Of a DNA stretch of 64,000 nt, positions 49,650-52,248 are shown piece after piece. The notes below the pieces were generated by a model. It had not been told where the DNA came from. It worked only from the letters and a program-made list of their open reading frames with translations, and did not search any database. The stretch lies in contig JFLJ01000175.1 of NCBI GenBank assembly GCA_000634115.1, positions 1 through 64,000 of the forward strand. Direction: 5' to 3'. A program made the position numbers and the translations under genes. Every line of letters starts with the position of its first letter. Within the stretch, counting starts at the first letter, position 1. The DNA comes from Prochlorococcus sp. scB241_528O2 (GTDB taxonomy: Bacteria > Cyanobacteriota > Cyanobacteriia > PCC-6307 > Cyanobiaceae).

Positions 49650-50753
49650 ATGGTGTTATTAAATAAAATTAAAAATAAACTGCGAATCAATTACAGAAAA
49701 AAAAGATGGCCAGGTTTAATCGAAGCTTACAAACAATATCTTCCAGTTACGAATAAAACTCCTATAGTCTCACTAAACGAAGGAAACACACCACTAATTC
49801 TAAGCGACTCCATTAGCAAATTAATTGGAAACGGAACAAAGGTTTTTTTAAAATATGATGGTCTAAATCCCACAGGATCTTTTAAAGATCGCGGTATGAC
49901 TATGGCCATCAGCAAAGCAAAAGAAGATGGACGTGAAGCAGTAATTTGTGCAAGTACTGGAAACACATCTGCCGCAGCGGCCGCATATGCTTCAAGAGGA
50001 GGATTAAAACCATATGTTTTAATCCCAGAAGGTTTTGTAGCACAAGGTAAACTTGCACAAGCTTTAATGTATGGAGCAGAAATAATATCTATTAATGGAA
50101 ACTTTGACAAAGCCCTGGAAATTGTAAGAGATTTATCTTCAGAACATCCAATAGAACTTGTTAATTCTGTTAATCCTTATCGAATACAAGGCCAAAAAAC
50201 AGCAGCCTTTGAAATAGTTGATGACTTAGGTATTGCTCCTGATTGGCTTTGTATTCCAATGGGCAATGCAGGAAATATAACCGCTTATTGGTTAGGGTTT
50301 AAAGAATATTCAAGAATAAAAAGAAATTTAAAATTACCAATTATGATGGGTTTTCAATCTGAGGGATCTGCTCCATTAGTACAAAATATAATAGTTGAAG
50401 ACCCGGAAACAATAGCAACAGCAATAAGAATTGGGAACCCTGTAAATAGAGAAAAAGCACAAGAGGTAAAAAAAGAAAGTAAAGGCGACTTTCAGTCAGT
50501 TACAGATGAGGAAATAATAAATGCTTATAAAATCTTGGCCAAAGAAGGAGTTTTTTGTGAACCAGCAAGTGCAGCATCGGTTGCTGGACTTATTAAAAAT
50601 AAAAATAGAATTCAAAAAGAATCTACTATTGTTTGTGTTCTTACTGGAAATGGTTTAAAAGACCCTGATTGCGCTATTAAAAATAATGATGCTGTTTTTA
50701 GAAAAAATATTGAACCTTCATTAAAAAACATAACAAAAATCTTAGGATATTAA
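49650..50753 (+). CDS. thrC: Threonine synthase
   Basis: 367 aa. PLP-dependent conversion of O-phosphohomoserine to threonine. The PLP lysine is in [14 protein letters not shown] near residue 75, and the substrate/PLP phosphate loop in [31 protein letters not shown] and [11 protein letters not shown] are also diagnostic. No allosteric SAM-binding N-terminal extension is present, in contrast to plant enzymes. It is the last gene before the presumed origin. Confidence 0.96.
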
Positions 50754-50773
50754 ACTCCAAAAAAAATTGTGTC

Positions 50774-50782
50774 TGTGGAAAT
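50774..50782 (-). promoter_or_regulatory. DnaA-box-like 9-mer (ATTTCCACA on the minus strand)
   Basis: One mismatch to TTTTCCACA. Lies near the thrC side of the origin region. Confidence 0.5.
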
Positions 50783-50832
50783 CAATTAAAAAATAAATTT
50801 ATTTGTTGAAAAAAATTTAAAAAATAATACAG

Positions 50833-50883
50833 TTTGTTGAATAACTTTAATTTTTCTAAATAAAGAAGAAATTATTCAACAAA
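50833..50883. repeat. 12-nt perfect inverted repeat in the origin region
   Basis: TTTGTTGAATAA (50833-50844) and its reverse complement TTATTCAACAAA (50872-50883) are separated by 27 nt. A further direct copy of the first 9 nt, TTTGTTGAA, lies at 50802-50810. It could be a hairpin terminator for thrC without a G+C stem, or a protein-binding repeat of the origin. Confidence 0.6.
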
Positions 50884-50892
50884 TAAAAAATT

Positions 50893-50901
50893 TTTTCCAC
50901 T
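50893..50901 (+). promoter_or_regulatory. DnaA-box-like 9-mer (TTTTCCACT)
   Basis: Matches TTTTCCACA at 8 of 9 positions, in the same orientation as the tandem boxes at 50947-50964. Confidence 0.55.
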
Positions 50902-50946
50902 TATTTAATCCATTATAAAACAAGTAAATAAGGTTTTTTAATTGAG

Positions 50947-50964
50947 AATTCCACATTTTCCACA
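50947..50964 (+). promoter_or_regulatory. Tandem DnaA boxes (AATTCCACA, TTTTCCACA)
   Basis: Two abutting 9-mers in the same orientation; the second is an exact consensus, the first has two mismatches. This tandem pair beside the DnaA-trio and A/T run resembles the unwinding-side boxes of Bacillus subtilis oriC. Confidence 0.75.
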
Positions 50965-50968
50965 GTTC

Positions 50969-50980
50969 CTACTACTACTA
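50969..50980 (-). promoter_or_regulatory. DnaA-trio repeats (four 3'-GAT-5')
   Basis: On the strand complementary to the window, reading 3'-5' away from the DnaA box, four consecutive GAT triplets occur (plus strand CTACTACTACTA), beginning 4 nt past the box and leading into the pure A/T stretch. This is the arrangement described for the bacterial basal unwinding element. Confidence 0.7.
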
Positions 50981-50984
50981 ATTC

Positions 50985-51013
50985 TTTTTTTTTAAATATA
51001 ATAATATTTATTA
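50985..51013. other. A/T-only stretch, probable DNA unwinding element
   Basis: 29 consecutive A/T bases, starting with nine T, 4 nt beyond the DnaA-trio repeats. Position and composition fit the site where strands first open. Confidence 0.6.
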
Positions 51014-51066
51014 GAAAGCAAAATAAATAACTTATTGAATTTAATTAACGAAAAAAGTATATTGAA

Positions 51067-51075
51067 TGTGTAAAA
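51067..51075 (-). promoter_or_regulatory. DnaA-box-like 9-mer (TTTTACACA on the minus strand)
   Basis: One mismatch to TTTTCCACA, 15 nt before the dnaN ATG. It could serve in origin function or in regulation of dnaN by DnaA. Confidence 0.4.
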
Positions 51076-51090
51076 AAAATCCAAATACCG

Positions 51091-52248
51091 ATGGAGATTG
51101 TTTGTAATCAAAATGAGTTAAATAATGCTATTCAACTAGTAAGTAAAGCAGTTTCTACAAGACCAACTCATCCAATTCTTGCGAATATACTTTTAACAGC
51201 TGATCAAGGAACAAATAAAATTAGCTTAACTGGATTCGATCTTAATTTAGGAATTCAATCTGCTTTTGATGGAACTGTAAAAAATAGTGGTGCTATTACG
51301 ATACCTTCAAAACTTTTATCTGAAATAGTAAATAAACTTCCTAATGAATCACCTGTCTCTATAGAAGTAGATGAAAATTCAGATAATGTTTTAATAAAAA
51401 GTGATAGAGGTTCTTTTAATCTTAAAGGAATTCCATCAGATGATTACCCCAACTTGCCATTTGTTGAAAGTGGAACTTCTTTAAATATTGATCCTAGTTC
51501 CTTTTTAAAAGCTTTAAAATCTACAATTTTTGCAAGTAGTAATGACGATTCAAAGCAATTACTCACTGGAGTTAATTTTATCTTTAAACAAAACTTTTTA
51601 GAATCTGCTTCAACAGATGGACATAGATTAGCTGTCGCGTTAATTGATAATGAAGAAAATATCGAAAATAAAGATAACTTTTATTCAAATGAAGGTGATT
51701 TATCAGTAACTATTCCAACTAGATCATTAAGGGAAATTGAAAAATTAGTGACTTTAAAAAGTTCAGAAAATTCGATAAAGCTTTTCTATGATAAAGGGCA
51801 AGTAGTTTTTATTTCCTCTAATCAAATTATTACAACAAGAACTCTTGAAGGTAATTATCCGAATTATTCACAATTAATCCCAGATACTTTTTCTAAAACT
51901 TTCAATTTTAATACCAAAAAATTAATTGATGCATTAGAAAGAATTGCTGTTTTAGCTGATCAGCAGAGTAGTGTTGTTAAAATTAAATTGGATGATACCG
52001 ATTTAGCTTTAATAAGTGCAGATGCACAAGATATTGGAAATGCAAGTGAATCAATACCTGTTTCTTATTCTGGAGAAAATTTTGAAATTGCATTTAATGT
52101 TAGATACCTTTTAGAGGGTTTAAAAGTTATTTCTTCTGAAAATGTAATTTTAAAGTGTAATCTTGCAACTACTCCAGCTGTTTTAGTTCCAGAAGATAAT
52201 CTAAATTCTTTTACCTATCTAGTGATGCCTGTACAGGTCCGTTCCTAA
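51091..52248 (+). CDS. dnaN: DNA polymerase III sliding clamp (beta subunit)
   Basis: 385 aa. Ring-shaped dimeric processivity clamp with three repeated clamp domains of about 125 aa: MEIVCNQNELNNAIQLVSKAVSTRPTHPIL at the start (written as its family opening), the ASTDGHRLAVALI hallmark near residue 172 and the C-terminal FTYLVMPVQVRS, matching the family ending '.lImPm.l'. ATG at 51091. It lies immediately after the predicted origin, an arrangement found in many cyanobacteria. A stop-to-start gap of 1 nt joins it to the next gene. Confidence 0.97.
   Translation: MEIVCNQNELNNAIQLVSKAVSTRPTHPILANILLTADQGTNKISLTGFDLNLGIQSAFDGTVKNSGAITIPSKLLSEIVNKLPNESPVSIEVDENSDNVLIKSDRGSFNLKGIPSDDYPNLPFVESGTSLNIDPSSFLKALKSTIFASSNDDSKQLLTGVNFIFKQNFLESASTDGHRLAVALIDNEENIENKDNFYSNEGDLSVTIPTRSLREIEKLVTLKSSENSIKLFYDKGQVVFISSNQIITTRTLEGNYPNYSQLIPDTFSKTFNFNTKKLIDALERIAVLADQQSSVVKIKLDDTDLALISADAQDIGNASESIPVSYSGENFEIAFNVRYLLEGLKVISSENVILKCNLATTPAVLVPEDNLNSFTYLVMPVQVRS

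Follow-up and report, generated by a model that had tools for sequence, protein, structure and literature searches.

A DnaA-box and DnaA-trio block upstream of dnaN in Prochlorococcus, and a letter rule for its trios across the family

Between a thrC-like gene and dnaN, the Prochlorococcus DNA analysed here, a stretch of 64,000 nucleotides hereafter called the window, carries two abutting DnaA boxes, a short spacer, four DnaA-trios and an A/T tract. This block is very probably the module by which DnaA unwinds the chromosome origin, which it would do by capturing trio bases in a pocket of the protein. The module of boxes and trios is already known as the basal unwinding system (BUS), of which the window copy is an ordinary member; what appears to be new, judging from the sequences compared, is a rule on the letters of the trios that runs through the family, the middle base being adenine or cytosine and the third base a pyrimidine. 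Searches of open-licence main texts in PubMed Central turned up neither natural cytosine trios nor a letter rule for trios.

The block and its locus

The features of the locus, each with the evidence behind it, are the following.

49650..50753, plus strand: thrC-like gene, usual upstream neighbour of the origin (open reading frame; upstream of dnaN in relatives)
50774..50782, minus strand: distal DnaA-box-like site ATTTCCACA (matching position filled in 64 of 69 HL-like origins)
50804..50812, minus strand: distal DnaA-box-like site TTTTCAACA (matching position filled in 64 of 69 HL-like origins)
50893..50901, plus strand: distal DnaA-box-like site TTTTCCACT (matching position filled in 66 of 69 HL-like origins)
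50947..50955, plus strand: DnaA box 1 of the tandem pair, AATTCCACA (sequence; position conserved family-wide)
50956..50964, plus strand: DnaA box 2, TTTTCCACA, abutting box 1 (sequence; conservation in the family)
50965..50968, plus strand: 4-nt spacer GTTC (length nearly fixed, letters variable)
50969..50980, minus strand: four DnaA-trios, 3'-GATGATGATGAT-5', top strand CTACTACTACTA (sequence, match counts, conservation)
50985..51013, no strand: A/T-only tract of 29 bp, predicted DNA unwinding element (direct reading)
51035..51063, plus strand: promoter-like site before dnaN, TTGAAT-17 nt-TATATT (motif match; recurs in HL-type loci)
51091..52248, plus strand: dnaN, DNA polymerase sliding clamp, 385 aa (open reading frame with ATG at 51091; relatives in 359 of 400 family genomes)

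Read directly, the complementary strand at 50969-50980 consists of four 3'-GAT-5' units, and ATTC (50981-50984) lies between them and the A/T tract. The boxes, the 4-nt gap, CTACTACTACTA and the 29 nt of A/T described in the first-pass annotation are exact to the base, and the order that it had likened to Bacillus, from box to trio to AT-rich DNA, is right for the window copy. The likeness is incomplete for the family as a whole, the GC-rich members of which often swap the middle adenine for cytosine.

The published search rule for the BUS (PMC8287927) concerns box mismatches, spacer and trios. AATTCCACA and TTTTCCACA form a pair within its bounds of at most two and at most four mismatches to the standard box; the 4 nt from box to trio fall well inside the limit of 16 bp; and the four 3'-GAT-5' units exceed the minimum of three consecutive 3'-NAN-5' trios. 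Distal upstream DnaA boxes are likewise found, with three sites at conserved places, and the DnaA of the window's genome has all five residues of the trio pocket (N187, I190, I193, R202 and E228).

A single TTTTCCACA means little, because the assembly has 27 exact copies of it and 19 of its reversed control, and boxes with one mismatch are not enriched in the window (30 found, 37 expected); these near-control counts led to its rejection as an origin marker on its own. The composite pattern behaves differently: TTCCACA-N4-CTACTACTACTA, with at most three mismatches, has one match in the window against 0.01 expected, and one in the 1.53-Mb assembly, a perfect one (the reversed pattern has four matches), and CTACTACTACTA with at most one mismatch has one match in the window against 0.13 expected.

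The open reading frame at 49650..50753, which I take to be thrC (threonine synthase), has its counterpart upstream of dnaN in 256 of the 265 relatives for which 600 nt or more of upstream DNA was available. HL-like origins average 2.94 distal boxes each, mononucleotide shuffles 0.18. An inverted repeat, TTTGTTGAATAA ... TTATTCAACAAA, lies at 50834-50885 between thrC and the boxes and is partly kept in HL-type relatives; it could represent a pair of weak DnaA sites or a binding site of unrelated nature. As a class, the inverted repeats of the thrC-dnaN gap, A/T-rich and mostly imperfect, were set aside as functional elements, no use having been found for them, and a search of 50754-51110 found no terminator-like site. 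The promoter-like site before dnaN is weak evidence alone, because chance would give 3.6 such sites in the region and four were found. Most of the HLI-type clade has a different sequence, TTTAATTGCAA..., in place of the one at 51035-51063. The named records among the window's relatives are Prochlorococcus, with one record named to family level, and the closest relative, L009 (AG-412-C21), with a DnaN 93% identical, has been classed as HLII (PMC6581173).

Conservation of the layout

Three hundred dnaN loci were collected from Prochlorococcus and 49 other genera of the family, leaving 287 distinct origins after removal of one without a start, one with a short upstream sequence and 11 duplicates. 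For the GC-rich set, genomes were picked according to genus and their order in the list, without regard to trio content; the search covered 110 of 116 planned genomes (G137, G315, G320, G325, G330 and G335 being omitted), and 10 of the 80 genomes of one batch are absent from the set.

The layout of boxes, spacer and trios is present in 286 of the 287 origins, across 50 sampled genera. A script that looked for a box-like 7-mer followed after 3-5 nt by at least three CKR triplets out of four was positive for 282 of 287 origins and for 3 of 287 reversed sequences. The origins that it missed are L183, L211 and L256, in which all four triplets start with C and just two are CKR; L254, in which the array is whole and the second box decayed; and L150, to which I return below. 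When the boxes alone serve as the anchor, CTA follows them at exactly 4 nt in 252 of 287 origins and is 1-2 nt off in 10; among the remaining 25, 20 have the array in place with a first trio other than CTA (CTT, CTG or CGA, for example), four have their array elsewhere, the anchor having fallen on the wrong box, and one, L150, has none. The length of the array can vary, as L092 (from genome G368) has five CTA trios instead of four.

Change counts on a tree of DnaN proteins with 261 tips, obtained by Fitch parsimony and therefore crude, give 5-25 changes per site for the nine columns of trios 2-4 (trio 1, used for the register, being excluded), against 37-71 in the spacer columns, 36-60 in the twelve columns after the trios and an average of 50 for the fourfold sites of dnaN. 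The alignment that the first-pass annotation had proposed as a check thus gives the result it anticipated, in Prochlorococcus and in the other genera sampled: box, spacing and trios stay fixed while the flanks drift. The block is not a product of chance, because its match in the assembly is single and perfect and its layout recurs in all but one of the origins, conservation being the strongest evidence on this point. The earlier interpretation of the block as a putative origin unwinding module is supported as well.

A letter rule in GC-rich relatives

In the 128 low-GC origins the trios are mostly CTA. The GC-rich origins (dnaN GC of at least 50%, n=133) offer 399 cells per position over trios 2-4, read in a register set on the box and trio 1, which places L209 and L311 one trio late. 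On the top strand the first base is C in 383 of 399 cells. The middle base is T in 163, G in 226, A in 7 and C in 3, so that the trio strand has adenine or cytosine in 389 of 399; the third base is A in 211, G in 184 and another letter in 4, that is, a pyrimidine on the trio strand in 395 of 399. At least one cytosine trio occurs in 126 of the 133 origins, and the common middle-base patterns over trios 1-4 are ACAC (36), AACA (25) and ACCC (20), the middle base of trio 1 being nearly always A (of 140 top-strand letters in the box-only register, 134 are T and 6 are G).

Top-strand G at the middle position goes from 3 of 348 cells at a dnaN GC of 0.28-0.34 to 111 of 156 at 0.66-0.75. Such a rise of cytosine trios with GC content, and the capacity of repeats to homogenise, would suit an ordinary BUS in which the letters of GC-rich members changed by mutation pressure and triplet slippage, with no selectivity on the part of the pocket. 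This account is nonetheless improbable in view of the kinds of change involved. At 53 fourfold sites of dnaN, T-C changes exceed T-G (T-G:T-C 292:620), yet the middle base shows 54 T-G and 3 T-C (p=4e-22), a comparison in which the changes of trios 2-4 are not fully independent if, as they may, trio units copy one another by slippage. Within the GC-rich genomes alone the middle base gives 47:2; the fourfold sites give 313:682 (p=1e-20), and the twelve flanking columns 99:78, or about 1:1 (p=2e-8). Moreover, adjacent columns behave in opposite ways, the third base changing by A-G transitions (56 of 63) and the middle one mostly by T-G transversions. The T-G and T-C counts also reject simple decay as the source of cytosine trios. 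Selective capture of single bases by DnaA during DNA opening is likely what the A/C pattern of the middle base reflects.

GC content was rejected as a full account of cytosine trios, since two loci of another cyanobacterial family, L374 and L375, have all-adenine trios at a dnaN GC of 62-64%; cytosine trios are therefore a habit of the lineage and are not forced by GC. The published pattern, (.A.){3,}, demands a middle A, and its authors suspected deviants without one (PMC8287927). Read in the box-trio register, it rejects 121 of the 133 GC-rich arrays, in which the leading run of A-middle trios is shorter than three; as these arrays are apparently BUS-like yet fail the published rule in register, they are here filed as a BUS variant.

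The middle-base rule is broken once each in 10 of the 133 GC-rich origins, seven of which belong to the genus g45 (L147, L182, L248, L255, L257, L258 and L260). Together with L256, these make eight g45 origins having one trio with a middle base other than A or C, such as CAA, AAA or CAG on the top strand. The DnaA proteins of g45 that were examined (G045, G143, the origin of which is L248, G158 and G205) have normal pockets, and the rule can therefore be broken without a change of pocket.

The DnaA pocket and a clade in which it changed

The window genome encodes DnaA away from the dnaN locus (G000:C107:12400-13740). In an alignment to 8btg, which I take to be the B. subtilis structure, this DnaA keeps N187, I190, I193, R202 and E228, as do 38 of 38 GC-rich DnaA, while the place of Asn196 is occupied by Asp in the family DnaA displayed in the pocket alignment. 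The residue letters of 8btg agree with those of PMC10721633, where the first two bases of each trio of B. subtilis are placed in a pocket between two DnaA subunits, with the G on Arg202 and Glu228 and the amine of the middle base on Asn187; the third base is rotated away, and while Ile190 and Ile193 flank it, it forms a bond to Asn196. According to the same work, which draws its base-swap support from engineered B. subtilis origins and scaffolds, a middle cytosine separates strands in vitro at about the rate of adenine, and in vivo it serves growth and initiation better than guanine or thymine, while alanine at 187 or 202 causes a severe growth defect (PMC10721633). Its authors note that pocket residues vary between species with the chemistry generally kept, and that the cytosine result "raises the possibility" of homologs that read a range of sequences (PMC10721633).

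The letter rule of the family fits this 2023 structure, as if a prediction drawn from it had been met in nature, and the Asp at 196, an acceptor able to bond either pyrimidine, may explain the rule for the third base. DnaA on both boxes would pass further DnaA subunits to the lower strand, where a neighbouring pair of subunits would capture the first two bases of a trio, G and then an amine base (A or C), with the third base, a pyrimidine, rotated outward; by such capture the strands would be kept apart and the A/T tract opened ahead of helicase loading. On this model the pocket would be the cause of the letter rule.

One Prochlorococcus clade has both N187S and R202K (B. subtilis numbering) in 26 of 26 DnaA loci from 22 distinct genomes (L169-L171, L173-L175, L414-L432 and L452), whereas N187 and R202 are kept in the 19 other full-length DnaA compared with them. 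AG-388-E21, a member of this clade, has been classed as HLI (PMC6581173). A middle base lacking the right amine occurs in trios 1-3 of 5 of the 23 HLI origins (T on the trio strand in L054, L057, L448 and L063; G in L059) against none of 79 from other Prochlorococcus (one-sided p=0.0004). The 23 comprise 20 named loci with L445, L446 and L448, and the 79 comprise 78 with L451; L446 was grouped with HLI on account of the S187/K202 DnaA of its genome. The raw script placement, before misregistered loci were re-placed, gave 5 of 21 against 2 of 78 (p=0.004). The second box of L070 and L097 reads GTTACCACA, and neither locus has a middle-base exception in the trio-1 register; L074, L094 and L451 are all four times CTA. 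First-base changes in trios 1-3 are more frequent in this clade as well, being found in 3 of 23 HLI origins (L075, L082 and L446) against three in the rest (L024, L036 and L049).

Given shared descent, the independent events behind the HLI breaks number perhaps three or four. The data suggest that pocket and trios are linked and go no further, since g45 breaks the rule more than others do while having normal pockets. Tentatively, and as a possibility I would stop short of calling probable, the trios could be viewed as a code of 3'-G, amine base, pyrimidine-5' in use throughout the family, which would loosen where the HLI pocket changed, pocket and origin co-evolving.

Loci without the block and the position of the origin

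L150, from G025 (a genome 95% complete), is the sole origin of the 287 without the array of box and trios. G025 also yields no DnaA, having no match to TIGR00362 or to PF08299 (the DnaA C-terminal domain). Its thrC and dnaN are still adjacent, with a gap of about 130-150 bp against 337. The dnaA gene could be hidden in assembly gaps; L150/L464 is otherwise a candidate for loss of DnaA-dependent initiation in picocyanobacteria.

The absence of the block from G025, a genome in which DnaA was not found, bears on the idea that the triplets form a site for some other protein, such as one regulating the dnaN promoter, rather than a single-strand target of DnaA. The block does lie about 110 bp before dnaN, and a promoter-like site separates the two. 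Nevertheless, its spacing is locked to the DnaA boxes, its three-base period with a separate rule per position fits one subunit per trio, and the same kind of block works in vitro in Synechococcus elongatus (PMC8287927), all of which makes a site for another protein highly improbable and favours the unwinding module.

In other cyanobacterial families, 7 of 44 sampled dnaN loci have CTA trios placed 4 nt (5 nt in L375) after the boxes; one such locus from a different family, L340, has the same layout of TTTTCCACA-TTTTCCACA-4 nt-CTA. The other 37 have no such block within 1-1.5 kb, and the neighbourhoods of tandem boxes in 14 of these block-less loci contain no alternative trio array that could be found. 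Partial minus-strand triplets beside poor boxes (2-3 mismatches) in L355 and L357 were taken as chance. Seven loci (L347, L349, L363, L364, L368, L369 and L370) have 7-11 DnaA boxes upstream of dnaN and no recognisable trio array there, which would indicate either another unwinding arrangement or a lost dependence on DnaA.

With respect to the position of the origin, the window's own assembly consists of 231 contigs, and skew was measured in the complete genome of a relative, G368, which has the same block. The AT skew of G368 switches sign at dnaN. Of the 20-kb segments sampled, all 10 on the arm that runs rightward from dnaN to the opposite point have negative values (the segment with dnaN itself being assigned to this arm), and all 10 on the other arm have positive values. 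GC skew is noisy, agreeing in 7 of 10 segments per side; AT skew was for this reason used alongside it, and GC skew by itself was dropped as an origin test. The skew of this one relative supports an origin at dnaN for the clade. A paper on Prochlorococcus replication (PMC2921402) contained none of the origin terms sought in it. DnaA was found in 367 of 400 family genomes and in 247 of the 250 good ones. That the block is a relic, with replication starting elsewhere or without DnaA, as in Synechocystis (PMC7198777), is the least credible reading of all, for even though several cyanobacteria have lost DnaA dependence (PMC7198777) and most of the other-family loci sampled are without the block, in this family the block is under strong constraint, the skew of G368 switches at dnaN and DnaA is widely present.

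Comparison with other systems

The BUS of B. subtilis, formed by DnaA-boxes 6/7 and trios (PMC6669920, PMC10721633), resembles the window copy in its tandem boxes of the same orientation, short spacer, 3'-GAT-5' trios, A/T tract, distal boxes (which are needed in B. subtilis; PMC6669920) and five pocket residues. It differs in having six trios, the window having four together with the cyanobacterial box TTTTCCACA; GC-rich kin of the window depart further, in that C frequently replaces the middle A and the third place is nearly always taken by T or C.

Closer to home, S. elongatus has its oriC near dnaN (PMC7198777), where the origin is predicted in the window too, and its DnaA opens its own boxes and trios in vitro (PMC8287927). 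Its BUS has thus been reconstituted, whereas Prochlorococcus and the cytosine trios are known here through their sequences. The DoriC and Ori-Finder accounts of cyanobacterial origins (PMC6323995, PMC10225481) also describe TTTTCCACA boxes, as in the window, and an oriC that is usually at dnaN, as is predicted for the window, and report that in GC-rich cyanobacteria, Cyanobium gracile among them, G/C tends to take the place of A/T within the box (PMC6323995); in the portions drawn on here they address boxes, not rules of letter substitution in trios. The oriC of Escherichia coli has an AT-rich unwinding element adjoining DnaA boxes, as is predicted for the window, but it has a weak BUS score (PMC8287927) and, in the account of PMC13220808, putative KAK boxes only.

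Conclusions

The structural work of 2023 proposed that DnaA picks the site of opening by grasping the amine of one base. By parsimony, evolution has made the corresponding middle-base swap about 50 times in this family, at dnaN GC contents of about 30-72%, mostly between A and C and seldom to G or T, and these natural swaps add a rule for the third base to that of the amine. The letter rule would explain why searches for middle-A trios can miss GC-rich origins, and it suggests a better motif, namely CKR on the top strand, repeated, 4 nt past the box. Natural mutants are also on offer, in the HLI clade with its S187 and K202 DnaA and in G025, which is without the block and without a detected DnaA.
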